From contig USCR01000065.1 in the NCBI GenBank assembly GCA_900553295.1, positions 1 through 12,410 on the forward strand: 12,410 nucleotides of DNA, in the 5' to 3' direction. The position numbers and the translations under genes were made by a program. This DNA is from an uncultured Eubacteriales bacterium. GTDB lineage: Bacteria > Bacillota > Clostridia > Christensenellales > Aristaeellaceae. Shown in pieces: positions 1-12,410 of this stretch. The first letter of the stretch is position 1; each line of letters begins with the position of its first letter. A model generated the notes under the pieces. The model was not told where the DNA came from, searched no databases, and saw nothing but the letters and a program-made list of their open reading frames with translations.

Positions 1-1035
1 GGGGATCTCCACCAGCCAGGCAGTGCCCAGCACATCGTTGGTCCAGTCCGTCAGGAAGGTGCCGAAGGGACCCATGGCGATCCAATACACCGCGAACATC
101 ACCACGGCGAAGATGGGCAGGGCCAGGATCCGGTTGGTGACGATCTGGTCGATCTTGTCGGAGGTGGAGAGGCGATGTTTCTCGCCCTTCTTCTTGACGG
201 CCTTCGTCACCAGATCGTTGATGTACGCATACCGCTGGTTGGTGATGATGCTCTCCGCGTCGTCATCCAGCTCCTTCTCGCAGTCCACGATGTGGTCCTC
301 CAGGTGGGCCCGGAGGTCTGTGCTCAGGTTCAGGTCCGCCAGGACCTTCTCGTCCCGCTCAAAGAGCTTGATGGCGTACCAACGGGTCAGGTGCGCGGGC
401 ACGATGCCCCCCTGGTGGACGGTCCCGTCCGCGTGGTGGTGATGCACCGGCTGCTCCCCGTAGTTGTGGACGATCAGGTCCTCAATATGGGCCAGGGCGT
501 GCTCCACGCTGCCCTCGAACACGTGGAGCGGCTGCCGGTGGCCGCCCTTGCGGGCCAGCTCCGCGGCCTGACGGGCGGCCTGCTGGCTGCCCTCGCTGCG
601 CAGGGCGGAGGTCTCCACCACCTGGCACTGCAGGGCCTCGCCCAGCTTTTTCAGGTTGATTACGTCCCCGTTTTTCCGGGTGACGTCAATCATGTTCAGC
701 GCCACTACCATGGGGATGCCCAGCTCCGCCAGCTGGGTGGTCAGGTACAGGTTCCGCTCAATGTTGGTGGCGTCCACAATGTTCAGGATGGCGTCGGGCT
801 TCTCATTGACCAGGTAGCCCCGGGCCACCACTTCCTCCAGGGTGTAGGGGGAGAGGCTGTAAATGCCCGGCAGGTCCTGGATGATGACGTCGTTCATGCC
901 CTTGAGACGGCCTTCCTTTTTCTCCACGGTGACCCCGGGCCAGTTGCCCACGTGCTGATTGCTCCCCGTCAGGTCGTTGAACATGGTGGTTTTGCCACAG
1001 TTCGGGTTGCCTGCCAGGGCGATTTTGATTGCCAT
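1..1035 (-). CDS. feoB: Ferrous iron transport protein B, FeoB (partial, N-terminal 345 residues)
   Basis: FeoB is the GTP-dependent inner-membrane Fe(II) permease of the Feo system. The gene starts at the ATG complementary to 1033-1035, preceded by a GGGAGGAA ribosome binding site about 6 bases upstream, and stays open to the left edge, so the rest of the membrane domain lies outside. The GTPase motifs are clear: G1 GNPNCGKT at residues 9-16, a G2 threonine near 36, G3 DLPG at 54-57, G4 NMID at 114-117 and G5 TSALR at 142-146. A helical (GDI-like) region follows. The first membrane segment begins near residue 313 (ILALPIFAVVMFAVYW). Between the G domain and the helical part is a histidine-rich stretch, VHHHHADGTVH, with four histidines at 198-201. 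It is the third gene of a leftward feoA-feoA-feoB operon, 72 bases after the second feoA. Confidence in the family is very high. Whether the missing C-terminus is intact cannot be judged. Confidence 0.97.
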   Translation of the reverse strand, partial: MAIKIALAGNPNCGKTTMFNDLTGSNQHVGNWPGVTVEKKEGRLKGMNDVIIQDLPGIYSLSPYTLEEVVARGYLVNEKPDAILNIVDATNIERNLYLTTQLAELGIPMVVALNMIDVTRKNGDVINLKKLGEALQCQVVETSALRSEGSQQAARQAAELARKGGHRQPLHVFEGSVEHALAHIEDLIVHNYGEQPVHHHHADGTVHQGGIVPAHLTRWYAIKLFERDEKVLADLNLSTDLRAHLEDHIVDCEKELDDDAESIITNQRYAYINDLVTKAVKKKGEKHRLSTSDKIDQIVTNRILALPIFAVVMFAVYWIAMGPFGTFLTDWTNDVLGTAWLVEIP

Positions 1036-1107
1036 GCGCTGTTCCTCCCGTCCGTATGTTAGATAACGCAAACCGATGGAGCCATGAAAAGCGGCGCCCC
1101 GTGGGGC

Positions 1108-1329
1108 TTACCGCACTTCGATGTTCTCCGCGTCTCCCTTGCGTACCGATAGCTCGTACCCTCGCACCGTCAGCTCCACGGGGTCGCCCAGGGGCGCCAC
1201 CTTGCGCACATACACCTCCGTGCCCTTGGTCAGCCCCATGTCCATGATGCGGCGCTTCAGCGCCCCTTCGCCGTGGAGCCGCTGGATCACCGCGTGCTCG
1301 CCCACCTTCACATCCCGCAGGGTTTTCAT
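1108..1329 (-). CDS. feoA: FeoA family protein (second feoA of the operon)
   Basis: This 73-residue protein is a small SH3-like FeoA protein, a cytoplasmic accessory thought to bind and modulate FeoB. Family hallmarks are the start MKTLRDVKVGEHAVI, the central segment RRIMDMGLTKGTEVYV, a PLGDPVELTVRGYELSVR strand pair, and a terminal ENIEV. The RIMDMGL and GDPVEL motifs are typical of FeoA. The start at 1329 is supported by an AAGGAAGG ribosome binding site about 7 bases upstream. It lies 56 bases downstream of the other feoA and 72 bases upstream of feoB. It is the more classical FeoA of the two and differs strongly from its neighbour, so the pair are paralogues and not a recent duplication. 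Confidence 0.95.
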   Translation of the reverse strand: MKTLRDVKVGEHAVIQRLHGEGALKRRIMDMGLTKGTEVYVRKVAPLGDPVELTVRGYELSVRKGDAENIEVR

Positions 1330-1385
1330 GTGACCATCCTTCCTTTCTGCGTGCCGGGTTTTTTCCGCGGCCCCGGCCTCAAGCG

Positions 1386-1598
1386 TTATACCAGGATGCG
1401 CATGGCCATGGATTTGTCCAGGGCCACGCGGCTGTCCTTCACCGAAAGAATCAGGTTTCCGCCCAGCTCGCTTACCACGCGAACCTCTTCGCCCACCACA
1501 AAGCCGATCTCTGCCAGGTGCTGGCGAACCTCATCCCGGCCGGTAATCTTGCGGATGATGTTCGTTTCGCCCACCTGAGCCATTCCCAAGGGCATCAT
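1386..1598 (-). CDS. feoA: FeoA family protein (first feoA of the operon)
   Basis: A 70-residue FeoA-domain protein of the shorter clostridial type. It contains MPLGMAQVGETNIIRKITG, then RQHLAEIGFVVGEEVRVVSE, then GNLILSVKDSRVALD and a terminal AMRILV, all recognisable for this subfamily. The family folds as a small SH3-like barrel and is presumed to act in the cytoplasm with FeoB. Two adjacent ATG codons are possible starts. The first (1596-1598) is 7 bases from a strong AGGAGG site and is preferred. This is the promoter-proximal gene of the leftward operon, and the upstream region carries the putative iron-repressor sites. In Clostridia, two FeoA proteins per FeoB is a common arrangement, and they may bind FeoB together or play distinct roles. 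Confidence 0.94.
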   Translation of the reverse strand: MMPLGMAQVGETNIIRKITGRDEVRQHLAEIGFVVGEEVRVVSELGGNLILSVKDSRVALDKSMAMRILV

Positions 1599-1614
1599 GC
1601 GCAGCCTCCTTTAT

Positions 1615-1652
1615 TTAGATAAGACTAACCTATGGGGGAAAATATAGGTTAG
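1615..1652. promoter_or_regulatory. Putative DtxR/IdeR-type iron-repressor operator in the feo leader
   Basis: Positions 1625-1633 (CTAACCTAT) and 1644-1652 (ATAGGTTAG) form a perfect 9-base inverted repeat with a 10-base gap. The segment 1615-1633 on the plus strand matches 15 of 19 positions of the DtxR/IdeR consensus TTAGGTTAGGCTAACCTAA, counted by hand. A weaker match of 12 of 19 starts at 1644. A further GGTTAG half-site lies in the predicted promoter spacer (1691-1696, minus strand). Position just downstream of the promoter, ahead of an iron uptake operon, supports repression by an iron-bound DtxR-family regulator. The same repeat could also form a stem in the transcript. Confidence 0.6.
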
Positions 1653-1678
1653 ACGCCGTTAACATCCAACCGCTGGAT

Positions 1679-1707
1679 AGTTTAATATATCTAACCGGCC
1701 TTGTCAA
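1679..1707 (-). promoter_or_regulatory. Predicted sigma-A promoter of the feo operon
   Basis: On the minus strand a perfect -35 box TTGACA (1702-1707) is followed after 17 bases by TAAACT (1679-1684), which matches four of six bases of the -10 consensus. It would start transcription near 1670, giving a leader of about 70 bases before the first feoA. A GGTTAG element lies in the spacer (1691-1696). A -10 alternative one base away (TTAAAC) is possible. Confidence 0.6.
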
Positions 1708-1776
1708 GGCCCTGGCTGGGAAAAACAAGAAAAAAATTTCGTTTTCTGTCCATGGCGGCACGGCGAAGAAAAATAC

Positions 1777-1805
1777 TTCAAAAAAACGGAAAGTTGTGCT
1801 ATACT
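1777..1805 (+). promoter_or_regulatory. Predicted promoter of the CNNM/CorC gene
   Basis: TTCAAA (1777-1782) and TATACT (1800-1805) are spaced by 17 bases, with four of six and five of six consensus matches. They lie about 40 bases before the TTG start in an AT-rich stretch. The region between the two divergent genes (1599-1843) otherwise holds only the feo promoter and its operator sites. Confidence 0.5.
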
Positions 1806-1843
1806 TCATATTGGATTGTTTTACAAATTAAGGAGGGATTTCT

Positions 1844-3217
1844 TTGTCATCCGACCCCATAGGCGGCCCGCTACTGTTGCAAGTGATTCTCATTGCCATC
1901 AATGCCTACTTCGCTTCCACGGAAATCGCCGTGCTTTCCCTGAATGACGTAAAGATACGCCGTCAGGCGGAGGAGGGCGACCGGGTAGCCAAGCTGCTGA
2001 TGAAGCTGGCGGAAAACCCCAACCGCTTCCTCTCCACCATACAAGTGGGCATTACCCTGGCGGGCTTCCTGGGCAGCGCCTTTGCCGCGGAAAACTTTGC
2101 CAGCGTGCTGGCCGGGGCCATTCTGGCCGCGGGCGTCACCGTGGATCCGCAGCTGCTCAATACCCTGTGCGTCATTGTCGTTACGCTGATACTTTCGTAC
2201 TTCACCCTGGTGCTGGGCGAGCTGGTGCCCAAGCGCATCGCCATGCAGCAGCCCGAGCGCGTGGCGCGGATGAGCTGCAAGTTCATCCTGGCCCTGGCGG
2301 CTTTCTTCCGCCCGGTGGTGTGGCTGCTGAGCAAGAGCACCAACGGCGTGCTGCACCTGCTGGGCATGAACCCCAACGCTGAGCCCGAGGAAGTCACCGA
2401 AGAGGAGATCCGCGCCATGGTGGACATGGGCGGCGAGAGCGGCGCCATTGAGGAAAATGAAAAGGAAATGATCGAGAACATCTTCGAGTTCAACAACCGC
2501 ACCGCCGAAGATGTGATGACCCACCGCACGGACGTAACCAGCCTCAATGTCAACGACAGCAAAGAAACCATTATCGCTACCATCCTGGACACGGGATTGA
2601 GCCGCTTCCCCGTCTATGACAAGGACATGGACGACATTGTGGGCATCCTGAATACCCGGGATTACCTGCTCAATAACCACGCGCCCCAGCCCCGCCCCGT
2701 GCGCGAGCTGCTGCGGGAGGCGTACTTTGTGCCCGAGACCGTCCAGGCGGACGTGCTCTTCCGGGACATGCAGCAAAAGAAAATGCACATGGCCATCGTG
2801 GTGGACGAATACGGCGGCATGAGCGGCATCGTCACCATGGAGGACCTGCTGGAGGAGATCGTCGGCAATATTTATGACGAGACCGACCCGCAGGCCGTGG
2901 CGGACATCGTCAAGGTGGATGACAACCTGTGGCGGGTCAACGGCGCGGTGAGCCTGGAAGAGCTTTCCAAGGCCATTGAAATCGAGCTGCCCACCGAGGA
3001 GGAATACGATACCCTGGGCGGGTTGATCTTCGACCAGTTCACCACCATTCCCCAGGACGGTACCCATCCCGAAGTGGACGCCGCCGGGCTGCACATTCGC
3101 GTGGAGCGGCTGACGGATCACCGGGTGGAGGAAGCCCTGGTGAGCAAGCTCGCCCCTGCGGAGGATGCCGGCCAGGAGGGCGAGGAAAAGGAAAATGCCG
3201 GAGCGGAACGGGAGTAA
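1844..3217 (+). CDS. CNNM/CorC family (HlyC-type) transporter with DUF21, CBS pair and CorC_HlyC domains
   Basis: A 457-residue membrane protein of the CNNM/CorC family. Characterised members move or control Mg2+ (Mg2+ efflux); the older label haemolysin is misleading. Residues about 10-180 form the DUF21 membrane domain, including [19 protein letters not shown] (57-75) and the conserved [10 protein letters not shown] (124-133). A CBS pair follows at about 226-348, ending in [20 protein letters not shown], which in relatives binds adenine nucleotides. Residues about 363-438 are the CorC_HlyC domain, with WRVNG and the TLGGLIF motif. The tail is acidic and charged. The start is a TTG at 1844, 7 bases after AGGAGG (1831-1836); no ATG gives a better N-terminus. 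The gene has its own promoter and a terminator, so it appears monocistronic and unlinked in function to the feo operon or the sugar cluster. The transported ion cannot be read from sequence. Confidence 0.93.
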
Positions 3218-3238
3218 AGCCTTCGGTTCCGTGTATTT

Positions 3239-3295
3239 GGGGGAGCCTCCCCGTCCGGGGCGCAAGCCTCGGGGGGAAGGCTCCCCCATTTTTTT
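3239..3295 (+). terminator. Intrinsic terminator after the CNNM/CorC gene
   Basis: A perfect 10-base stem, GGGGGAGCCT (3239-3248) with AGGCTCCCCC (3278-3287), encloses a GC-rich loop that can fold further (CCCCG with CGGGG). It is followed by A and seven T residues (3289-3295). It sits 21 bases after the stop codon and separates this gene from the sugar cluster. Confidence 0.9.
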
Positions 3296-3348
3296 GTCAC
3301 GCATAGGGAAAAACACGAAAATATGTATATTCTTCCAGGATTTTTCCC

Positions 3349-3376
3349 TTGACTTCCTGTGCGCAAACAGTATTGT
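3349..3376 (+). promoter_or_regulatory. Predicted promoter of the sensor kinase/response regulator operon
   Basis: TTGACT (3349-3354) and TATTGT (3371-3376) are separated by 16 bases, matching five of six and four of six consensus positions. This lies about 90 bases before the kinase start. A 9-base perfect inverted repeat, AGGGAAAAA (3305-3313) with TTTTTCCCT (3341-3349), flanks the upstream side and touches the -35 box, so it could be a regulator site. Confidence 0.5.
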
Positions 3377-3468
3377 AAGCAAAGAATCTTTTTTATTTGG
3401 ACACATAACAATGGAGCAATGGGTGGGAGCGGCGCGCCATGCGTTCCCATCCCGGAGGAGGGAGCGCC

Positions 3469-5229
3469 ATGAGGCTGCGCCGGTGGATGGCCAACCGACG
3501 GCTGCGGACAAAATTTGTGCTGATCCTGATGGCGGCCATGCTGCTGGTGTTTGCCATTACGCTGGCCACCATGCGCATTCCCTACGCGGCCTATGACCAG
3601 CAGCTGTACAACAGCAGCACCCAGCTGATCACCCTGTTTGCGGACAGAATCCAGGGGGAACTGGAGAACATCGAGGCCCTCTCCTTCCGTATGCTGGCGG
3701 ATAACGTCCTTCAGGAGAGCCTGCGGGATATGCTGGATAAGCCCATCACCACCTCCTCCTGGATGGAAGCACGGACTAACGTGGGAGAGCGGATCAGCTA
3801 CTTCAGCGTATGGTCCGACAGCGTGCTGGCCCTGCGGATCAAAACGGCCAATGGCATTTCCCTGGGGCAGGCCCTGGGGACCACCTACACCATGGGGGAG
3901 ATTACCCCGGCGCAGGTGGCACAGGCCGCGGAGGAAACAGGCCGCCCCGTATGGCAGGTGGAGGACGGGGACCCCGCCCGGCTCTATCTGGTGCGGGAGA
4001 TACGGGAGATCGAATGGCTCACCCTGCGCCCCCTGGCCACGCTGCTGATTCAAATGGACCTGAAGGGGCTGGTAAACAAGCACCTTACCAGCATGGACCG
4101 CCGGGGTACGCCCCTTACCTGCGCCATTTACAGCGGGGATACCTGCCTGTATGCCAGCGACGAGGGGATCCGCCAGCTGTCCCCCGGGGAGGATGGCTAC
4201 GCGGCCATGAACCTGGATGGCCGGGACGTGCTCTGCGTCCGCTACACCGCGCCCAACGGCTGGCGGTATGTGGCGCTGCAGGACTATGAAGCCATTGAGC
4301 AGACGATCAGCAGCTCCGTGCGGCTGACCATGGGCGTGCTCCTGGGGGCCATGGTGCTGGCCCTGCTCCTGGGCGTGCTGCTGATTTCCTCGGTGGTGCG
4401 GCACCTGAAAATCCTGGTGGACAAGTTTGACGCCTTTGCCCTTACCGGCAAGCCGGTTCCCGAGGACAACGGCCCTTACCTCACCCGCCGGGATGAGATT
4501 GGCCAATTGCACCGGCACTTTGACAAAATGACCCGGGACTATGACCGCATGACCCGGGATAACTACGAGCAGCAGCGCCTTTTGCAGGAAAAGCAGATGC
4601 AGCAGCTCCGGGCCCAGGTGCGCCCGCATTTCCTGTACAATACCCTGGAGTCCATCTACTGCCTGGCGAAAAACGCCCAGGACGAGCGCATCGCCGCCAT
4701 GACGGACGCCCTGGGGAAGATGCTCCGCGCCTCCTTGAACGACAAGCGGGACGTGGTCAGCGTGGAGGAGGACCTGCAAATCACCAAGGAATACCTGCGC
4801 ATCCAGCTTTTGCGCTACGGGGACCGGCTGCGGGTGGAATATGACCTGGAGGAAAGCCTGCTGTGCTGCCGCATCCCCGCCATGACCATCCAGCCCCTGG
4901 TGGAAAACGCCGTGCACCACGCCGCGGAGGAAATGCTGGAAACCTGCGTCATACGCATTGGGGGCAGGGCGGAGGACGGCGCCGTGGACCTGTACGTGGA
5001 GGATAACGGCCCCGGCATGGACGAGGATATGCTGGCCAAGCTGGAGAGCGGGGAGATCAAGCCCGAGGGCATGGGCATCGGCCTGCGCAATATTCACCGC
5101 CGGGTGCAGTACGCCTTCTCCGACCGCTACGGCCTGCGCATCCAGAGCCAGCCCCACCACACCCGAATCATCATTCATTTGCCCGACACGCGGCCGGAGG
5201 GACCGGGAGGAAGGAGTAACCATGTATAA
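3469..5229 (+). CDS. YesM-like sensor histidine kinase (HAMP, His_kinase, HATPase_c)
   Basis: A membrane sensor kinase of 586 residues. Transmembrane segment 1 is at about 15-36 and segment 2 at about 286-311. Between them is an extracytoplasmic sensing region of some 250 residues. A HAMP linker (about 312-365) leads to a His_kinase (PF06580-type) domain with RPHFLYNTLESIY, where the phosphorylated histidine is H387. The ATPase domain shows the N box QPLVENAVHHA (475-485), DNGPGMD (512-518) and GMGIGLRNIHRRV (534-546). All key residues are present. The ATG at 3469 is chosen because AGGAGG (3456-3461) lies 7 bases before it. An in-frame ATG at 3439 would add 10 residues but has a poorer site and no improvement to the N-terminus. 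The stop overlaps the next start by 8 bases. Such kinases typically respond to external sugars or oligosaccharides, consistent with the transporter downstream. The ligand is unknown. Confidence 0.95.
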   Translation: MRLRRWMANRRLRTKFVLILMAAMLLVFAITLATMRIPYAAYDQQLYNSSTQLITLFADRIQGELENIEALSFRMLADNVLQESLRDMLDKPITTSSWMEARTNVGERISYFSVWSDSVLALRIKTANGISLGQALGTTYTMGEITPAQVAQAAEETGRPVWQVEDGDPARLYLVREIREIEWLTLRPLATLLIQMDLKGLVNKHLTSMDRRGTPLTCAIYSGDTCLYASDEGIRQLSPGEDGYAAMNLDGRDVLCVRYTAPNGWRYVALQDYEAIEQTISSSVRLTMGVLLGAMVLALLLGVLLISSVVRHLKILVDKFDAFALTGKPVPEDNGPYLTRRDEIGQLHRHFDKMTRDYDRMTRDNYEQQRLLQEKQMQQLRAQVRPHFLYNTLESIYCLAKNAQDERIAAMTDALGKMLRASLNDKRDVVSVEEDLQITKEYLRIQLLRYGDRLRVEYDLEESLLCCRIPAMTIQPLVENAVHHAAEEMLETCVIRIGGRAEDGAVDLYVEDNGPGMDEDMLAKLESGEIKPEGMGIGLRNIHRRVQYAFSDRYGLRIQSQPHHTRIIIHLPDTRPEGPGGRSNHV

Positions 5230-6253
5230 GCTGTTGCTGGTGGACGACGAGCAGATCATCCGCGAAGGGCTGGCGCGCATGATCGACTGGGAGGGCCTGG
5301 GGCTGACGCTCACGGCCTCCTGCTCCAATGCCCTGGCCGCCCTGGACAGCATGACCGACGACATGCCGGACATCCTCCTGGCGGATGTGCGCATGCCGGG
5401 CATGAACGGCCTGGAACTGGTGGAACGGGCCATGGCCCTGCACCCGCAGCTGCAGGCCATCATCCTCTCCGGGTACGATACCTTTCAGTACGCCCAGCAG
5501 GCCATCAAAACCGGGGTGATGGAATACCTGCTCAAGCCCTGTTCCCAGGAGGAGCTTACCTCCGCCCTGGAGCGCGCCTGCCGGGCGGTGGACCGGCAGC
5601 GGCAGCATGTGCTGCACCTGTACGGGGAGCGCCAGGAGCGCATTGAGCGCCTTACCTGCCGCCTGCAGGAGATCCAGCAGCATGCCGTCACCGGCGAGCA
5701 GCTGCAAAAGCAGGTGCATGCCCTGGCCAAGTCCGCCGAGGACCCCGGCCTGCTCCAGGGCGCGCTGATTAACCTGGTCACCTCCAGCCTGGGCAGCGTG
5801 CAGCCCGAGTGGGGCCTGGGGGTGATTGTGGACGCGGTGCGGGAACAGGACAAGCTGGAGCAGCTGCTGGTGCGCAGCCTGACCCGCCTCCGGGGGGAAA
5901 GCGCCGGGGGCCGGGGCTTCATCCAGCAGATGACTGCCTACGTGGACGGGCACTATCAGGAGGAATCCCTGACCCTGCAATTCCTGGCGGACCACGTCAT
6001 CTACATGAACGCCGACTACATCGGCCGGGAGTTCAGCCGGGTCATGGGCAAGAAGTTCAGCGCCTACCTGCTGGAAACCCGCATGGAACGGGCCAAACTG
6101 CTCATGACCACCGACGCCGGACTGCACAGCTACGAGGTGGCCGAGCAGGTGGGCCTGGGCAATAATCCGCATTATTTCAGCCAGCTTTTCCGCAAGTATA
6201 CGGGGTTAACGCCCACGGAGTACCGCAGCCGTCTGGAAAATGAAAGATCATGA
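5222..6253 (+). CDS. YesN-like response regulator with REC and C-terminal AraC-type HTH
   Basis: A 343-residue cytoplasmic transcription regulator and the obvious partner of the kinase. The receiver domain (1-120) has the acidic pair D8/D9, the phospho-acceptor D55 in LLADVRMPG, S83 at the switch position and K106 in YLLKP. A linker of about 115 residues with helical, heptad-like character (about 120-175) follows. The C-terminal ~100 residues are an AraC-family double helix-turn-helix, with SLTLQFLADHVIYMNADYI and the signature NNPHYFSQLFRKYTGLTPTEYR. The start ATG (5222) lies inside the end of the kinase gene: ATGTATAA contains both the start and the kinase stop codon. It is preceded by GGAAGGAG, so translation is probably coupled. 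The likely target is the transporter promoter 130 bases downstream of its own stop, where a 12-base palindrome overlaps the promoter. Confidence 0.95.
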   Translation: MYKLLLVDDEQIIREGLARMIDWEGLGLTLTASCSNALAALDSMTDDMPDILLADVRMPGMNGLELVERAMALHPQLQAIILSGYDTFQYAQQAIKTGVMEYLLKPCSQEELTSALERACRAVDRQRQHVLHLYGERQERIERLTCRLQEIQQHAVTGEQLQKQVHALAKSAEDPGLLQGALINLVTSSLGSVQPEWGLGVIVDAVREQDKLEQLLVRSLTRLRGESAGGRGFIQQMTAYVDGHYQEESLTLQFLADHVIYMNADYIGREFSRVMGKKFSAYLLETRMERAKLLMTTDAGLHSYEVAEQVGLGNNPHYFSQLFRKYTGLTPTEYRSRLENERS

Positions 6254-6364
6254 CCCAGGGTGCGCACAGGCGATTCCCGCTTGATGCGCGCTTTGTTTAA
6301 TCTGGTATATAATTTTCCGAAATAACGGATAAGTGACCAAGAGGGTCTGATATTTGCATTTTGA

Positions 6365-6386
6365 TTTTCATGAAAAACGCTATAAT
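6365..6386 (+). promoter_or_regulatory. Predicted transporter promoter: perfect -10 box with an overlapping palindrome
   Basis: TATAAT (6381-6386) is a perfect -10 box 35 bases before the binding-protein start. No good -35 box lies at 16-18 bases (TTTTGA at 6359-6364 is weak; TTGATT at 6361-6366 is only 14 away). This is typical of promoters that need an activator. TTTTCATGAAAA (6365-6376) is a perfect 12-base palindrome directly upstream of the -10 and a candidate regulator site. A second TATAAT (6308-6313) also lacks a suitable -35. The rest of 6254-6420 shows nothing gene-like. Confidence 0.5.
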
Positions 6387-6420
6387 GAGGACAACCAAAC
6401 AAATCGGAGGTGTTCCCACA

Positions 6421-7707
6421 ATGAAACGTATGCTGTCCATTCTGCTGGCCGCCATGCTGCTGTGCGTGGCCATGGCGCCCCTGGCCACCGCCGGCGCGGA
6501 GCAGGAGCCCGTTACCCTGCGGGTGACCTGGTGGGGTTCCCAGACCCGTCACGACCTGACCATGGCCGCCATCGAAAAGTTTGAAGAGAAGTACCCCTAC
6601 ATCACCGTGGAGGCCGAGTTCACCTCCTGGGACGGCTACTGGAGCAAGCTGGCCACCCAGGTTGCCGGCGGACTGATGCCCGACGTCATCCAGATGGACT
6701 ATCAGTATCTGAACCAGTATGCCCAGAGCGGCGTGCTGGCCGATCTGACCCCCTTCTTCGAGTCCGGGGCCATCGATGTGAGCAATGTGGCTCAGAGCGT
6801 AATAGACAGCGGCGCGGTGAATGGCACCGTGTACGCCCTGTCCACCGGCACCAACGCCCTGGCCACCTTCTACCGCAAGGACGTGCTGGACGAGGCCGGC
6901 GTGGAGATGCCCATGGAGCCCACCATTGATGAATTCTACGAAATCGCCGCCACCGTATATGAAAAGACCGGCCGCACCCAGGATACCCTGGTGGGCAAGG
7001 ATGCCCTGCGCAACCTGCTGCGCTCCTACGGCCTGCAGCTGTTCAACGAGACCAACGACGGCCTGGGCTTTGATGATCCCAAGTACCTGGTGCGCACCTG
7101 GCAGGATCGTCTGGACGCGGTAGCCGCGGGCTGGTGCCTGGATGTGGGCGAAACCTCCGCCACCACCGCCTTTGACGCCATGGTCAGCGACAGCTGGGCC
7201 AGCTGGCACTGGACCAATGAGCTGGCCGCCTATCAGGAGGGTTCCGACTGCGAGCTGGAGCTTGCCTGCTGGCCCGTGCCCGAGGATGCCCAGATGTCCC
7301 CCGCCTATTTCAAGGCTTCCATGTATTGGTCCATCAATGAAAATTCCGCGGTGAAGGATGCCGCCGCCCTGTTCATCAACTTCTTCACCAACGACAAGGA
7401 TTGCTTTGACATCGTGGGTATCGACCGCGCCATGCCCATCTCCAGCGAAATGCTGGCCTACATCACCCCCAACCTGGACGAAACCAGCCAGAAGGTAGCC
7501 GCTTACCTGGAGTACCTGGGCCAGGAGGGCAAGACCACGCCCATCATGCCCCCGGATGCCTCCGCCAGCGGCGAGGTGGAAGCCCTCATGGGTGAATATT
7601 TCGAGGCCGTGCAGTATGGCCAGGTGGACGATCTGACCGCCTGGGCGCAGGAATTCATGGATGAAGCCAACGCCATCCTGAAGAAGGCCGCCCAGACCGC
7701 GGAGTAA
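6421..7707 (+). CDS. Extracellular sugar-binding protein of a CUT1 ABC transporter (SBP family 1)
   Basis: A 428-residue solute-binding protein. A Sec signal peptide spans about residues 1-24 (MKR, hydrophobic core, then LATAG) with likely cleavage after ATA. There is a cysteine at 15, but the preceding MLL does not make a lipobox, so this is probably not a lipoprotein, unlike most Gram-positive binding proteins. The mature part begins with VTLRVTWWGSQTRHDL and has the family pattern FEEKYPYITVEAEF, then PDVIQMDYQYLNQYA, then YRKDVLDEAG, typical of carbohydrate-binding family 1 proteins. Several tryptophans and tyrosines are present for stacking on sugar rings. The ATG at 6421 is used, with CGGAGG (6405-6410) about 10 bases ahead. 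The earlier in-frame TTG at 6361 would run through the promoter. It is followed by a hairpin and then the two permeases. The ligand cannot be named from sequence. Confidence 0.94.
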   Translation: MKRMLSILLAAMLLCVAMAPLATAGAEQEPVTLRVTWWGSQTRHDLTMAAIEKFEEKYPYITVEAEFTSWDGYWSKLATQVAGGLMPDVIQMDYQYLNQYAQSGVLADLTPFFESGAIDVSNVAQSVIDSGAVNGTVYALSTGTNALATFYRKDVLDEAGVEMPMEPTIDEFYEIAATVYEKTGRTQDTLVGKDALRNLLRSYGLQLFNETNDGLGFDDPKYLVRTWQDRLDAVAAGWCLDVGETSATTAFDAMVSDSWASWHWTNELAAYQEGSDCELELACWPVPEDAQMSPAYFKASMYWSINENSAVKDAAALFINFFTNDKDCFDIVGIDRAMPISSEMLAYITPNLDETSQKVAAYLEYLGQEGKTTPIMPPDASASGEVEALMGEYFEAVQYGQVDDLTAWAQEFMDEANAILKKAAQTAE

Positions 7708-7728
7708 ATTCCTATCGGTTAAGCCTGT

Positions 7729-7760
7729 GGAGGCCGCCCGGCGGCGGCCTCCCTTTTTTT
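7729..7760 (+). terminator. Hairpin with T-run between binding protein and permeases (partial terminator)
   Basis: GGAGGCCGCC (7729-7738) pairs perfectly with GGCGGCCTCC (7743-7752) around a 4-base loop CGGC, followed by C and seven T residues (7754-7760). It has all the parts of an intrinsic terminator, but the permease ribosome binding site begins 3 bases later and no separate promoter is visible. It therefore most likely works as a leaky terminator or 3' stabiliser that keeps binding-protein mRNA above permease mRNA. Confidence 0.85.
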
Positions 7761-7777
7761 CAAAGGAGTGGAGTCGC

Positions 7778-8677
7778 ATGCGCAAGCTCAGCAGGACGCT
7801 GGGGCAGGAGAAGGTGGCGGGATATGTGTTCATCCTGCCCTTCATCATCGGGCTGATCGTCTTCACGGTCATTCCCTTTTTCACCTCCCTGTACCTGGCG
7901 TTTACGGAATATGATATTCTTACGCCGCCCAAGTGGATCGGCCTGGACAACTTCAAGCGGATGTTCTTTGAGGACAAGTACTTCTGGAAATCTTTCTGGG
8001 TTACCTTCAAGTTTGCCCTGATCCAGGTGCCGATCAAGCTGCTGGTGTCCCTGGGTGTGGCGCTGATCCTCTCCCGCAAGACCAAGGCGATTCCCCTGTA
8101 CCGGGCTGCCTTCTACATCCCCTCCCTCATGGGCGGCAGCGTGGCCGTGGCCCTGACCTGGAAGCAGCTGTTCTCCTACGACGGGGCTATCAACCACATC
8201 ACCGCGCTCTTCGGTATGGAGCCTGTGAAGTGGCTCTCCAACCCGGATACGGCCCTGGGGGTGCTGATCGCCCTGGGCGTGTGGCAGTTCGGCAGCTCCA
8301 TGCTCATCTTCCTGGCGGCGCTGAAAAACGTCCCCGAAAGCTACCACGAGGCGGCCATTGTGGACGGCGCGGGCCCGGTGAAGCGCTTCTTCAAGATCGT
8401 GCTGCCCATGATTACCCCCATTTTCTTCTTTAACCTCATCAACCAGACCATCGGCGCGTTCCAGGCCTTCAACTCCAGCTACCTGATTACCCAGGGCAAG
8501 CCCCTGAACACCACCCTGTACTATGGCGTGCACCTGTACAACCGGGCCTTCACCTATTACGAGATGGGCTACGGCAGCGCCATGGCCTGGTTCATGCTCC
8601 TGGTGATCGCCGCCTTTACCGCGCTGATTTTCCGCTCCTCCACCGCGTGGGTCTACTATGAATCGGAGGGGAAGTAA
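7778..8677 (+). CDS. CUT1 sugar ABC transporter permease (MalF/UgpA type)
   Basis: A 299-residue inner-membrane permease with about six transmembrane helices, the first at residues 13-40 (VAGYVFILPFIIGLIVF). The EAA loop that contacts the ATPase is YHEAAIVDGAGPVKRFFKIV followed by LPMITP (189-214), with the conserved E191-A-A and G198. Segments FYIPSLMGGSVAVALTWKQL and PLNTTLYYGVHLYN are typical of the UgpA/MalF subfamily of CUT1 transporters. The ATG at 7778 is chosen because AAGGAG (7763-7768) lies 9 bases before it. An upstream in-frame GTG at 7727 would run through the terminator hairpin and give a non-family N-terminus. The stop is 3 bases before the next permease, so they form one translational unit. 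No ATPase gene lies in the cluster. Confidence 0.95.
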   Translation: MRKLSRTLGQEKVAGYVFILPFIIGLIVFTVIPFFTSLYLAFTEYDILTPPKWIGLDNFKRMFFEDKYFWKSFWVTFKFALIQVPIKLLVSLGVALILSRKTKAIPLYRAAFYIPSLMGGSVAVALTWKQLFSYDGAINHITALFGMEPVKWLSNPDTALGVLIALGVWQFGSSMLIFLAALKNVPESYHEAAIVDGAGPVKRFFKIVLPMITPIFFFNLINQTIGAFQAFNSSYLITQGKPLNTTLYYGVHLYNRAFTYYEMGYGSAMAWFMLLVIAAFTALIFRSSTAWVYYESEGK

Positions 8678-8680
8678 GCT

Positions 8681-9550
8681 ATGATTACCACCACAACGCG
8701 CTATCACAGCATCAAGCGCCGCAAGATCACCATGACCGTGGTGTACCACGTGCTGGTGGCGGCCGCCAGCCTGGCCATGCTCTATCCACTGTTCTGGATG
8801 CTTTCTTCTTCCTTCAAGCCCAATAACGAAATCTTCACCACCGTGGGCAGCCTGATTCCCCAGACCTTCACCACGGAGAACTACGTGAACGGCTGGCGGG
8901 GCTTCGCGGGGCTGAGCTTTGGAGTGTACTTCCGCAATTCCCTCATTGTGGCGGGGCTGTCCACCATCGGGGCGGCGCTGTCCTCGGCGCTGGTGGCCTT
9001 CGGCCTGGCGCGGCTGCACTTCCCCGGGCGGAACTTCTGGTTCGTGTGCATGATCGTCACCATGATGCTGCCCGGCCAGGTGATGATGATTCCCCGCTTT
9101 GTGCTCTTTAACCAGCTGGGCTGGGTGGGCCCCTTCCTGCCGCTGACGGTTCCGGCGTTCTTCGGCAGCGCCTTTGACATCTTCCTGGTGATGCAGTTCA
9201 TCCGCGGCATTCCCCGGGACATGGACGAGGCCGCCCGCATTGACGGATGCAGCTGGTACGGCATCTTCACCTACATCCTGGTGCCCATGATCGTGCCTGC
9301 GCTGGTGACCGTGGGTATCCTCACCTTCATCAATTCCTGGGGCGACTTCATGGGCTCCCTGCTGTACCTGAATTCTCCGGCCATGTATACCTCGGCCTAT
9401 GCCCTGAAGCTGTTCTCCGACAGCGCGGGCACGGACTTCGGCGCAACCTTCGCCATGTCGGTGCTCTCCCTGGTGCCGATCCTGATTATCTTCTTCTTCT
9501 TCCAGAAGCAGCTGGTGGAGGGCATCAGCACCCAGGGCCTCAAGGGCTAA
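8681..9550 (+). CDS. CUT1 sugar ABC transporter permease (MalG/UgpE type)
   Basis: A 289-residue second permease of the heterodimeric channel. A short basic N-terminus (KRRK) leads into the first helix at about 19-40, followed by the family motif LYPLFWMLSSSFKPNNEIFT. The EAA loop is MDEAARIDGCSWYGIFTYIL plus VPMIVP (181-206), with E183, A184-A185, G189 and P202 in place. About six helices are predicted. The C-terminus GISTQGLKG is a classic MalG-type ending. The ATG at 8681 follows CGGAGGGG by about 10 bases and lies just after the stop of the first permease. With the binding protein it makes a CUT1 importer lacking its ATPase, which in Bacillota is commonly supplied by a shared MsmX/MsiK-type protein. 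Confidence 0.95.
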   Translation: MITTTTRYHSIKRRKITMTVVYHVLVAAASLAMLYPLFWMLSSSFKPNNEIFTTVGSLIPQTFTTENYVNGWRGFAGLSFGVYFRNSLIVAGLSTIGAALSSALVAFGLARLHFPGRNFWFVCMIVTMMLPGQVMMIPRFVLFNQLGWVGPFLPLTVPAFFGSAFDIFLVMQFIRGIPRDMDEAARIDGCSWYGIFTYILVPMIVPALVTVGILTFINSWGDFMGSLLYLNSPAMYTSAYALKLFSDSAGTDFGATFAMSVLSLVPILIIFFFFQKQLVEGISTQGLKG

Positions 9551-9567
9551 TTGCAGAAAATTCATCC

Positions 9568-9600
9568 ATTCGGCAGGAGCGTTGTCGCGTCCTGCCGAAT
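9568..9600 (+). other. Stem-loop between permease and GtaA-family gene
   Basis: ATTCGGCAGGA (9568-9578) pairs perfectly with TCCTGCCGAAT (9590-9600), and GCG/CGC inside can extend the stem to a TTGT loop with one bulged G. It is followed by TCTTGTG, not a real T-run, so it is a weak terminator at best. It could set polarity between transporter and enzyme genes or protect the upstream mRNA from 3' degradation. Confidence 0.7.
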
Positions 9601-9631
9601 TCTTGTGACAGAATAAAAGGAGGAAAAATCC

Positions 9632-11536
9632 ATGGCTATGCTTGACCGGCTTCCAGCCCTGCCGCTGGTGGCCTCCGACCCTTATTTTTCCATATGGATG
9701 CCCGCGGATACCCCCACCCAGACCGACAGCTGTCACTGGAGCGGCCCGGAAAAGCCCCTGCGGGGCAGCCTTACCGTGGACGGCGCGGCCTTCCGCTTCC
9801 TGGGCACAGGCCCTGAGGCGGAGGCGGAGCTCACCGCCCAGCAGGTGACCGCCACGGCCACCCGCTTTGTACACCAGGCCGGGGGCGTGCGCCTGGAGAC
9901 GGTGTTCCGCACCCCCGCCCTGCCCCAGGACCCCGATCTGCTCAGCATGCCCGTGACCCTGGTGAGCTTTTCCCTGGCCAGCGTGGACGGCGGGGAGCAT
10001 CAGGTGGCCCTGCGCTTCCACCTCTCCGATAAGCTGTGCTACGATGGCAACATCCGCCCGGCCATGACCTCCGACAGCTTTGCGTTCCTGGGCCATGGAG
10101 CGGCCTGGTGCGGCCAGACCGTGCAGCGCCCCCTGAGCCACTCCGGGGACCATGTGACCATGGATTGGGGCTACCTGTACCTAATGGGGGACGGGCAAGT
10201 CTCCGCCCTGGGGGACGGCCTGGCCCTGACCTGGGCGGGCGCGGTGAAGGAGGAGACCGGCCTGCGGGCGGTGGTCGCCTATGACGACATCGCTTCCATC
10301 AATTATTTCGGCGACCTGTGCAAGCCCTGGTACCGCCGCCATGGGGCGCAGATCACCGACGCCATCCGCACGGCCTGGGAGGGCTTTGAGGCCATCGCCG
10401 CCCGTTGCCAGGCCCTGGACCAGGAGCTGGCCGGGGAGGCGGCGCAGGCCGGCGGCGCGGACTATGCCTACCTGTGCGCCGCGGCCTGGCGGCAGACCTT
10501 CGCCGCCCACAAGCTCATTGCCACGCCCCGGGGAGAAATGGCCTTCCTCTCCAAGGAGAACGACTCCAACGGCTGCATCGGCACCGTGGACGTGAGCTAT
10601 CCCTCCATCCCCGTGCTGCTGAAATACGCCCCCGAGCTGGTGAACGCCCTGTGCCGCCCGGTGCTGGAGTTTGCCTCCATGCCCGTGTGGACCGATGACT
10701 TCGCCCCCCACGACGTGGGCCGCTATCCCAACGCCACGGGCCAGGTGTACGCCGCCCGGCGCCGCGTGCCCAACGGGGAGACCCATCCGCCGTATTATCT
10801 GTATCCCGCCGGCGCCCCGGTGTACGATCCCCGCTATCAGATGCCCGTGGAGGAGTGCGGCAACATGCTGGTGATGCTGGCCGCCGCCCAGGCCTTTGGG
10901 GCCTCCGATGGTTTGGCCCGGGCCTACCGCCCCCTGCTGGACAAATGGGTGGGTTATCTGGTAACCTATGGGGAGGACCCCGGCGAGCAGCTGTGTACCG
11001 ACGACTTCGCCGGGCATCTGGCCCATAACGTGAACCTGGCGGCCAAGGCCATGGTGGGCGTGGCCTGCTACGGGCGGCTCACCGGCGACGCCTCCTGGGA
11101 GGACAAGGCCCGGGAGATGGCCGCGCGCTTCCTGGAGAAGGTGGGCGCGCAGGGCAACACGCCCCTGACCCTGGACGGCCAGGGCTGGAGCATGAAGTAC
11201 AACCTGCTGTGGGACCGGGTGCTTCACCTGGGCCTGCTGCCGGATGGCTTCTATGACGCGGAGCTGAACAGCTACCTGCCCCGGATCAACGCCTACGGCC
11301 TGCCCCTGGATTCCCGGGCGGACTACACCAAGTCCGACTGGATCTGCTGGACCGCGGCCCTGACCCAGGACAAGACCCTGCGCCAGGCGCTGCTCTCCCC
11401 CATTGCCCGGATGCTGCGGGAGACCACCTCCCGCGTGCCCTTCTCCGACTGGTATGATACCAAGACCGGCCGCTATCAGGCATTCATTGCCCGGAGCGTG
11501 CAGGGCGGCATTTACGCCCCCCTGCTGCGGGGCTAA
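9632..11536 (+). CDS. Glutaminase A (GtaA)-family protein, DUF4965/DUF1793-type, probably carbohydrate-active
   Basis: A 634-residue protein of the family named after fungal glutaminase A (DUF4964/DUF5127/DUF4965/DUF1793 architecture): an N-terminal beta-sandwich, then an (alpha/alpha)6-type catalytic region. It opens with LPLVASDPYFSIWMPAD, the family start motif. Conserved blocks follow: KENDSNGCIGTVDVSYPS (308-325), WTDDFAPHDVGRYPNATG (353-370), MPVEECGNMLVM (404-415), CTDDFAGHLAHNVNLAAKA (455-473), YTKSDW (565-570), VPFSDWYDT and ARSVQGG. Several conserved acidic residues (D355, D356, E407, E408, D457, D458) could be catalytic, as in glycosidases with this fold. No signal peptide is present, so it acts in the cytoplasm. 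AAGGAGG at 9617-9623 lies 8 bases before the ATG. Family glutaminase activity is known from fungi. Its place between sugar permeases and a sugar epimerase points to a glycoside substrate; this is inference. Confidence 0.85.
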   Translation: MAMLDRLPALPLVASDPYFSIWMPADTPTQTDSCHWSGPEKPLRGSLTVDGAAFRFLGTGPEAEAELTAQQVTATATRFVHQAGGVRLETVFRTPALPQDPDLLSMPVTLVSFSLASVDGGEHQVALRFHLSDKLCYDGNIRPAMTSDSFAFLGHGAAWCGQTVQRPLSHSGDHVTMDWGYLYLMGDGQVSALGDGLALTWAGAVKEETGLRAVVAYDDIASINYFGDLCKPWYRRHGAQITDAIRTAWEGFEAIAARCQALDQELAGEAAQAGGADYAYLCAAAWRQTFAAHKLIATPRGEMAFLSKENDSNGCIGTVDVSYPSIPVLLKYAPELVNALCRPVLEFASMPVWTDDFAPHDVGRYPNATGQVYAARRRVPNGETHPPYYLYPAGAPVYDPRYQMPVEECGNMLVMLAAAQAFGASDGLARAYRPLLDKWVGYLVTYGEDPGEQLCTDDFAGHLAHNVNLAAKAMVGVACYGRLTGDASWEDKAREMAARFLEKVGAQGNTPLTLDGQGWSMKYNLLWDRVLHLGLLPDGFYDAELNSYLPRINAYGLPLDSRADYTKSDWICWTAALTQDKTLRQALLSPIARMLRETTSRVPFSDWYDTKTGRYQAFIARSVQGGIYAPLLRG

Positions 11537-11557
11537 ACGATAAAGGAGGTATCCTGG

Positions 11558-12388
11558 ATGGAAAAACTACGCGTGTTTGCCTTTGCTGACGAGGCCAGCC
11601 CGGCCATTTCCGGGCAGATCGCCGCCATGGAGCGCAACGGGCTCCAGGGGCTGGAGATCCGCGGGGTGGACGGGGAGAACGTCTCCGACATCTCCCTGGA
11701 CAAGGCCCGTGAGGTGCGCCGCCGCCTGGAGGACGCCGGGCTGACGGTATGGTCCGTGGGCTCGCCCATTGGCAAGATTGACCTGGAAAAGGACGACTTC
11801 GCCGCGCACCTGGACAAGCTCCGCCACACCCTCGATGTGGGCCGGGAGCTGGGCGCCAAGCACCTGCGGATGTTCTCCTTCTACATTCCCGCGGGCCGCA
11901 CCCCGGAGAGCTGCCGCCAGCAGGTGGTGGATCAAATGGGGGAAATGCTCCGGGTGGGCGAGGGCAGCGGACTGCTGTTCTGCCATGAGAATGAGAAGGG
12001 CATTTACGGCGACGTGGCCAGCCGCTGCAAGGAGCTGCTGGATCTGTTCCCCGCGCTGGTGGGGGTCTTTGACCCGGCCAACTTCATCCAGTGCGGCCAG
12101 GATACCTGGGAAGCCTGGGAGCTGCTGGCTTCCCGCACCTACTACATGCACATCAAGGATGCCCTGGCCGACGGCAATGTGGTGCCCGCGGGCCACGGCA
12201 TTGGTCAGGTGAAGCGCATTCTGGACGCGTACCGCGCCCAGGGCGGCACCGCCGTGACCATTGAGCCCCACTTGCAGGTGTTCTCCGGCCTCCAGGGCCT
12301 GGAGCGCGAAGGCGAAAAGACGCAGATGGGCGCCTACTGCTACGAAAATTCCGACGCGGAACGGGCGCCTCTCCTCTCACCAGCGTGA
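11558..12388 (+). CDS. Sugar phosphate isomerase/epimerase-like TIM-barrel protein (xylose isomerase-like)
   Basis: A 276-residue cytoplasmic TIM-barrel protein of the AP_endonuc_2/xylose isomerase-like superfamily. The N-terminus FAFADEASPAISGQIAAMER and VGSPIGKI (67-74) are typical of proteins labelled sugar phosphate isomerase/epimerase. The usual metal-binding set is present: E144 in FCHENEKGIYGD, D172 in VFDPANF, H198 in YYMHIKD and E236 in TIEPHL. The start at 11558 follows AAAGGAGGT (11542-11550) by 7 bases, and the gene is 21 bases after the GtaA-family gene, so it is co-transcribed and likely co-functional. Members isomerise sugars or polyols, and some cleave 3-keto-glycosides. The exact reaction cannot be read. 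The C-terminal 12 residues (SDAERAPLLSPA) do not look like the usual final helix; a frameshift near 12357 that would extend the gene past the window is possible. Confidence 0.85.
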   Translation: MEKLRVFAFADEASPAISGQIAAMERNGLQGLEIRGVDGENVSDISLDKAREVRRRLEDAGLTVWSVGSPIGKIDLEKDDFAAHLDKLRHTLDVGRELGAKHLRMFSFYIPAGRTPESCRQQVVDQMGEMLRVGEGSGLLFCHENEKGIYGDVASRCKELLDLFPALVGVFDPANFIQCGQDTWEAWELLASRTYYMHIKDALADGNVVPAGHGIGQVKRILDAYRAQGGTAVTIEPHLQVFSGLQGLEREGEKTQMGAYCYENSDAERAPLLSPA

Positions 12389-12410
12389 AGCACGCCGGGC
12401 TGCCGTGGGA

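Follow-up and report, generated by a model that had tools for sequence, protein, structure and literature searches.

A GtaA-family "glutaminase" in a sugar-import operon of an uncultured Eubacteriales bacterium is predicted to be a glycosidase related to clan GH-O

What does a protein with a glutaminase label do in the middle of a sugar-import operon? The question is raised by a stretch of 12,410 nucleotides (contig USCR01000065.1 of assembly GCA_900553295.1, positions 1 to 12,410 of the forward strand) from an uncultured Eubacteriales bacterium of the Aristaeellaceae, referred to as the window. Its operon encodes, in this order, a sensor kinase, a response regulator, a solute-binding protein, two CUT1-type permeases, a GtaA-family protein (GtaA) and a TIM-barrel protein. 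Judged from its sequence relatives, GtaA is very probably a glycosidase. The fuller reading that we favour, and consider reasonably likely, is a retaining exo-beta-glycosidase that works in the cytosol, is related to clan GH-O and would act on an imported oligosaccharide of pectin type.

The original prediction had described a complete GtaA/DUF4965-DUF1793 protein without signal peptide, placed in a sugar-import operon, and these three points held. GtaA matches PF16334 (residues 6-59, E 1.3e-16, 60.6 bits against a curated cut-off of 30.7), PF17168 (residues 75-185, E 2.7e-23, 83.4 bits against 28) and PF16335, GtaA_6_Hairpin (residues 275-630, profile positions 1-342 of 343, E 5.3e-111, 371.7 bits against 24.9). 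Two BPD_transp_1 permeases lie upstream, and the AP_endonuc_2 TIM-barrel gene starts 21 bases past GtaA with its own ribosome-binding sequence. A strong ribosome-binding sequence, AAAGGAGG, is found 8 bases 5' of the GtaA ATG. Among the matches listed, 7964 of the 7998 scored candidates are homologous, so that the open reading frame (ORF) is no product of chance and the family counts at least 7964 members. The NCBIfam models gave no match to the window protein, and annotated relatives are labelled "glutaminase family protein" or "DUF4965 domain-containing protein". By a pattern check, the DPYFSIW motif is preceded by 15 residues only, which leaves no space for a signal peptide; lacking an N-terminal extension, the protein should stay in the cytosol.

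The relation to known glycosidases emerged from profile-profile comparison by hhalign against families assembled from fetched sequences; a plain sequence search of the PDB with the window GtaA returned no significant match (best E 0.46). Among 22 DUF608-type ORFs, L161 alone gave a usable signal in single-sequence comparisons (37%, E 3.5e-4). It matches TxGH116 chain 5fjs with an E value of 2.4e-64 and was the source of a GH116 set of 11 proteins, L161 and its relatives. The GtaA alignment (n=67) matched this set with a probability of 96.9% (E 1.6e-10, 545 columns), a second alignment (n=63) with 97.7% (E 2.2e-12, 425 columns) and a further, slightly different set with 96.8% (E 2.2e-10). The best score against 100 column-permuted GH116 alignments was 27.2, compared with 93.0 for the real one, and 40 comparisons between random halves of both alignments gave a median E of 1.8e-7 (worst 0.019), with a probability above 50% in 38. 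GH52 (n=25) was matched with 81.1% (E 1.2e-5) in one run and 88.9% (E 2.4e-6) in the other, and the set of 85 GtaA proteins described below matched GH52 with 93.4% (n=3) and 86.8% (n=43). The beta-xylosidase family GH52 and GH116, to which the beta-glucosidase TxGH116 belongs, both fall in clan GH-O (PMC6887791, PMC10167657), and their match to each other (93.3%, E 2.8e-7) served as yardstick. The fold of this clan combines a beta-sandwich with an (alpha/alpha)6 part. The relation of GtaA to GH116 is as strong as that between the two clan members (1.6e-10 versus 2.8e-7), and that to GH52 is weaker (1.2e-5). The profile alignment spans both parts of the window protein; the differences are an identity of about 17% and the placement of GtaA in separate Pfam families. 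For GtaA-type proteins, HHpred matches to GH116 (E 7.2e-34) and GH52 (E 7.1e-31) are on record, and the structure predicted by AlphaFold for a fungal relative overlaps that of a GH52 protein (PMC9668830).

These alignments point to candidate catalytic residues. Residues E309, D320, H360, T456 and D458 of GtaA align with E433, D445, H481, T558 and D560 of L161, and through L161 with E441, D452, H507, T591 and D593 of TxGH116 (numbered as the 5fjs chain plus 19, a scheme that reproduced the published residue at each of eight positions tried). The pairing with L161 is also found for E309, D320, T456 and D458 in the 96.9% run (n=67). At the five positions, the 11 GH116 proteins carry E in 11, D in 8, H in 8, T in 9 and D in 10. 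In TxGH116, E441 is the nucleophile and D593 the acid/base, while H507, D452 and T591 bind sugar hydroxyls (PMC10167657). In the GH52 alignment E309 and D458 fall on E334 and D494 of L157, equivalent to E357 and D517 of 4C1O, the catalytic pair of GH52 (PMC6887791), and E309 meets the nucleophile in both runs with GH52 of the n=25 type, whereas D458 meets the acid/base in the 81.1% run (n=25) and the 86.8% run (n=43). A Glu and an Asp of GtaA thus align with the clan GH-O nucleophile and acid/base. Over the 40 random-half repeats the GH116 partner was unchanged in 40 for D320, 40 for H360, 35 for E309 and 33 for T456; E309 was unpaired in the other five. On this alignment evidence E309 and D458 can be proposed with good confidence as the catalytic pair, from which we infer a retaining mechanism.

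Conservation was assessed in 85 GtaA proteins: the window protein, 77 from family loci (length 580-900) and seven from the homologue search. One further GtaA, P0002 (833 aa), carries an internal repeat, probably an assembly fault, and was excluded. E309, D320, H360, D361, E407, E408, T456, D457 and D458 are invariant in all 85; E309, D320 and H360-D361 were absent from the residue list of the original prediction.

A candidate substrate is suggested by the transporter. The nearest solved relative of the window binding protein is YesO of Bacillus subtilis (E 1.6e-64, 34% identity, 133 of 396 aligned residues), whose ligand is the trisaccharide unsaturated galacturonate-rhamnose-galactose (PMC7596534). 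Of the 11 YesO residues tabulated as touching the unsaturated galacturonate (PMC7596534), nine are kept in the window (W20, R25, W52, D75, N127, N254, K284, S286 and M287, YesO numbering), including seven of seven direct hydrogen-bond partners. D178 and D239, which contact rhamnose/galactose in YesO, are also kept. Counting the window, 13 orthologues reach 46% identity or more, and 10 of them have the complete nine-residue set (L081 has 8, L229 7 and L232 6). Five other GtaA loci contributed six putative binding proteins, chosen by position, length or weak match, and these do not keep the set. The imported ligand is therefore predicted to end in galacturonate, perhaps unsaturated, as in a pectin-type fragment. 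The gene order resembles yesOPQR of B. subtilis yesOPQRSTUVWXYZ, with a YesO-like binding protein, two permeases and then a cytosolic glycoside hydrolase; the difference is that GtaA stands where B. subtilis has YesR, a GH105 enzyme (PMC7596534, PMC5730181). No GH105 or GH88 gene adjoins the permeases of the window, that place being taken by GtaA. Action of GtaA on the imported sugar is likely, and the original prediction of a carbohydrate enzyme that acts on the imported compound is to this extent supported.

In the proposed pathway, the YesO-like binding protein and the two permeases would import an oligosaccharide with a galacturonate or unsaturated galacturonate end, and GtaA would trim it in the cytosol from the end, releasing a beta-linked neutral sugar. 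E309 would attack the anomeric carbon, D458 would serve as acid and then as base, and subsite -1 would be where D320, H360 and T456 keep the sugar in place. A neutral sugar in beta linkage is the most likely product, and beta-galactose is a first, tentative guess at its identity.

Orthologues of the binding protein were used to see what lies behind this transporter elsewhere. They were found in five of 396 genomes of one order, and in 21 of 250 genomes of one family at 24 places, of which 16 were fetched, three were already included and five were left out (one of them a 67% identical fragment). Eleven fetched places reach at least 46% identity; the contigs of L227 and L232 end too early, which leaves nine readable operons. 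GtaA occurs within two genes after the last permease in two of the nine, directly in L231 and after a GH43 gene in L233. One operon, L156, has GH2 behind the permeases, and L145 has a TIM-barrel gene and three GFO/IDH/MocA genes. Eight fetched places are about 32-35% identical, and L234, the one scanned, shows GH88/105 and then GH4. Another operon, L081 (a Subdoligranulum variabile record), consists of kinase, regulator, binding protein, two permeases, GtaA and a GFO/IDH/MocA gene; it was found through its GtaA and stands outside the count of nine. GtaA is thus behind the transporter type of the window in four loci, the window included. Since GtaA is present in only 25 of the 396 genomes of the order, two adjacent cases in nine are estimated to lie far above random position.

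In a transporter tree built from eight loci, the window groups with L145, L228 and L155 (support 1.0), apart from L081, L156, L231 and L233, whereas in a GtaA tree of seven proteins the window pairs with L081 (0.96) and L231 with L233 (1.0). The two trees disagree, which points to repeated formation or renewal of the pairing. Most simply, GtaA would have entered this operon type, or been exchanged into it, on more than one occasion; an ancient association followed by losses and exchange may be the alternative history. The recurrence of the pairing speaks for a functional link. Among the binding proteins, the position of YesO N251 (window residue 283) holds Gln in L081, L231, L233 and L156, in all of which GtaA or GH2 follows, and His in the window, L145, L155, L226-L230 and L232, where GtaA follows in the window alone (L227 and L232 are cut off). 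These are few and related cases. In YesO, N251 touches galactose (PMC7596534).

A number of results weigh against the retaining, pectin-linked glycosidase proposed here. A second GH116 branch, of the exo-beta-D-arabinofuranosidase type (L086-L090, later with 60 relatives), reached 48% over partial length (n=5) and 9% (n=65), too weak to be included in the residue mapping. Global-mode hhalign runs yielded no usable alignment (1 and 44 columns), and in a profile search of PDB sequences the top match, GH116 entry 12rj, was non-significant (E 0.057) and was not used as proof. D458 held its GH116 partner in 26 of the 40 repeats, slid three residues in 10 and further in four, and in the 88.9% GH52 run fell one residue short of the acid/base, on Y493; the placement of E309 is good and that of D458 somewhat less secure in these alignments. 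The TxGH116 contacts E777, R786 and R792 have no assignable GtaA counterparts in the alignments. In the binding protein, two galacturonate contacts are replaced (Y252 by W and Q255 by E), and most rhamnose/galactose contacts are changed (N172D, H175V, P176G, I179A, F180L, M236F, N251H and F259Y). Neither GH105 nor a rhamnogalacturonan lyase is encoded within the window. Five of the nine readable operons (L155, L226, L228, L229 and L230) have no sugar gene directly behind the transporter, the next genes of L155 and L226 being outside the Pfam scan; in L229 the next 4 kb are without a called gene, and GH28 follows beyond. L145, the operon closest to that of the window (permease 93% and binding protein 79% identical), lacks GtaA: a 71% identical TIM-barrel protein follows MalG directly, and the genome carries a 51% identical GtaA elsewhere. 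Two candidate counterparts were considered and dropped: R621 for R792, as the alignments pair R621 with His, and D606 for E777, as D606 pairs with the residue adjacent to the partner of E777.

Unlikely, though the best surviving alternative, is a clan GH-O-like beta-glycosidase with a substrate other than an imported pectin-type sugar, such as a host or fungal glycan, for which the operon would be a place of regulatory convenience. The absence of GtaA from L145 agrees with it, as do genomes G056 and G386, where GtaA lies apart from the transporter. The close relatives in L141 (68%) and L143 (51%) stand away from it. The surroundings of the wider family were surveyed in the best 80 of at least 589 relatives, one genome per species, with eight recurrent glycoside-hydrolase groups, permeases and binding proteins as listed neighbours. 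Within 5 kb of GtaA, 33 of the 80 loci have a listed hydrolase, 17 a transport gene and 43 either. Among the 24 closest loci, 12 have one or the other. Hydrolase-group genes are denser near GtaA (28 of 278 genes within 2 kb versus 7 of 162 at 6-8 kb), and transport genes show no distance trend (21 of 278 versus 12 of 162); genes at distances of up to 8 kb were used to define the groups, so the 8-10 kb bin cannot serve as a fair control. Homologues lying mostly away from sugar transport genes would, by the terms of the original prediction, count against it, and to some extent they do lie so: among the 48 loci that extend 5 kb or more to either side, a CUT1-type transport gene is present within 5 kb in 16, a recurrent hydrolase in 21, either in 30 and neither in 18.

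The neighbours in these loci are of several kinds. GH76 and GH92 (and GH125 in one) stand beside SusC/SusD-type genes in mannan-type loci of Hymenobacter tibetensis and Bacteroides finegoldii. GH92 and/or GH38 occur with permeases near GtaA in mannan-type loci of lactobacilli, an enterococcus and bacilli, and other relatives adjoin GH127, GH2 or an alpha-L-arabinofuranosidase. Less clear are Halomontanus, with sugar-acid-type enzymes, Parabacteroides, with GH2 only at a distance of 5 kb, L143, and the 18 of 48 loci in which none of the listed groups occurs. The company of GH92, GH38, GH76 or GH125 in other bacteria speaks for a substrate other than the imported pectin-type sugar, but in four loci, the window among them, GtaA is paired with one and the same type of transporter, the trees being discordant, and other glycoside hydrolases occupy the same place behind the transporter. 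The family looks polyspecific, and the window branch has therefore to be read from its own operon. Loci with GtaA near permeases and GH92 and/or GH38 are L022, L028, L034, L035, L037, L052 and L062; in all except L028 there is also a protein roughly 725-755 aa long, and the two such proteins that were scanned gave no Pfam match.

The original prediction took an (alpha/alpha)6-like core and conserved pairs of acidic residues, D355-D356, E407-E408 and D457-D458, as signs of a carbohydrate enzyme and looked to inverting (alpha/alpha)6 glycosidases for comparison. An inverting enzyme of this kind, as in GH15, GH65 or GH92, would use two of these pairs. A six-hairpin domain is indeed present, the second and third pairs are invariant, and GH92 is a recurrent neighbour in the wider family. 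The first pair fared differently: D355 is kept in seven of the 85 proteins, F or Y being the usual residue there, and D356 is kept in 65, so that this pair is no catalytic candidate, which counts against the inverting reading. GH92 and GH127 were the two other (alpha/alpha)6 families in the comparison. The profiles of GH92, GH127, GH38, GH2, GH31 and GH29 (5 to 11 sequences each) matched GtaA with at most 1.1% probability, which for GH92 and GH127 is a weak negative with just five sequences each and GH15 and GH65 outside the comparison. The best matches are the retaining families GH116 and GH52, with E309/D458 as the pair, and an inverting enzyme is accordingly quite improbable.

That the protein is a true glutaminase or gamma-glutamyl hydrolase in a coincidental sugar operon is very unlikely: gtaA had been cloned as a glutaminase gene, but the glutaminases involved in glutamate formation in soy sauce and koji, GahA, GahB, GgtA and Gls, are not of the GtaA type (PMC8399179), a Streptomyces GtaA-type protein did not convert a glutamine substrate (PMC9668830), the conserved GtaA residues fit the clan GH-O site, and sugar enzymes hold the same place in related operons. 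The suspicion that the name misleads in this branch is strengthened by the same points. The Streptomyces protein was a weak beta-galactosidase (0.85 U per mg) and negative with other aryl glycosides; a fungal GtaA-type protein was among the targets of probe JJB111, as were 12 known glycosidases, and GtaA-type proteins were proposed as glycoside hydrolases in 2022 (PMC9668830). Streptomyces misionensis WP_074995790 and Phanerochaete chrysosporium Phchr2|3002168 have the same domain set as the window protein, which differs from the P. chrysosporium protein in having no secretion signal and in its place in an import operon (PMC9668830). A text search of the main text of PMC9668830 returned no "catalytic residue", "nucleophile" or "gene cluster", and no publication naming GtaA catalytic residues or a pectin-import link was found in open-licence PMC text. 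The glycosidic reading of the family is thus already in print, and the catalytic residues and pectin-import context were not found published in the text searched.

Thousands of family members carry a label that points to glutamine. If the catalytic residues and the pectin link are true, they would become testable glycosidases with named residues to mutate, and a third branch of the small clan GH-O, which is marked by an unusual, perpendicular protonation (PMC10167657). They would also offer a candidate for a step that is missing from the known degradation of rhamnogalacturonan side groups. A more specific proposal, speculative and with a low chance of being right, is that this branch supplies the intracellular beta-galactosidase which removes the galactose side group from YesO-type rhamnogalacturonan fragments, an enzyme called "unidentified" for B. 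subtilis in 2020, and that GtaA is a third clan GH-O family plugged into a YesMNOPQ-like pectin import operon.

Table 1. Features of the operon in the window, with positions counted from its first nucleotide.
Feature	Position	Strand	Basis or remark
GtaA-family protein, 634 aa (DUF4964 + DUF5127 N-terminal part, six-hairpin part)	9632..11536	+	ORF and Pfam; predicted retaining beta-glycosidase
AP_endonuc_2 / xylose-isomerase-like TIM barrel, last gene visible in operon	11558..12388	+	Pfam
CUT1-type permease, MalG/YesQ position	8681..9550	+	Pfam (BPD_transp_1)
CUT1-type permease, MalF/YesP position	7727..8677	+	Pfam (BPD_transp_1)
Solute-binding protein, closest solved relative YesO	6361..7707	+	Sequence comparison
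Response regulator with AraC-type HTH	5213..6253	+	Pfam
Sensor histidine kinase	3439..5229	+	Pfam
Perfect 11-base inverted repeat, loop 11, between MalG and GtaA	9568..9600	.	Sequence
E309 codon, predicted catalytic nucleophile	10556..10558	+	Alignment with TxGH116 E441, GH52 E357
D458 codon, predicted acid/base	11003..11005	+	Alignment with TxGH116 D593, GH52 D517

The arrangement of kinase and regulator is presumably comparable to YesM-YesN, and at the window edge, positions 1-1071 on the minus strand, lies what we take, from motifs in the ORF translation, to be a fragment of a FeoB-like ferrous iron transporter. Between the binding-protein gene and the first permease, a ten-pair GC-rich hairpin followed by a T run is found at 7729-7752, as expected for a partial terminator that would reduce permease expression. 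Because of this hairpin, the first permease is taken to begin inside its ORF, and judged against L145 its true start is probably at MRKLSRTLGQEK. The inverted repeat listed in Table 1 sits exactly where the nearest operon, L145, has no GtaA; its inner 10-base arms have no exact match in 241 loci. Rfam gave no match at the gathering threshold, and no promoter-like site was found in 5000-12410.

The idea that the TIM-barrel gene marks GtaA operons was dropped: its relatives occur in 152 of the 396 genomes, as against 25 for GtaA, and phmmer with the window TIM-barrel protein found none in L001-L080. Other AP_endonuc_2 proteins are near GtaA in L003 and L141. TIM-barrel relatives in L149 and L151 (65% and 64%) stand beside permeases (45-50%) and a binding protein of about 31% identity, without GtaA. 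With the same transporter as in the window, GFO/IDH/MocA oxidoreductases follow the TIM-barrel gene in L145 (12318-15846) and GtaA in L081 (12010-13086), hinting at an oxidative step in further sugar breakdown.

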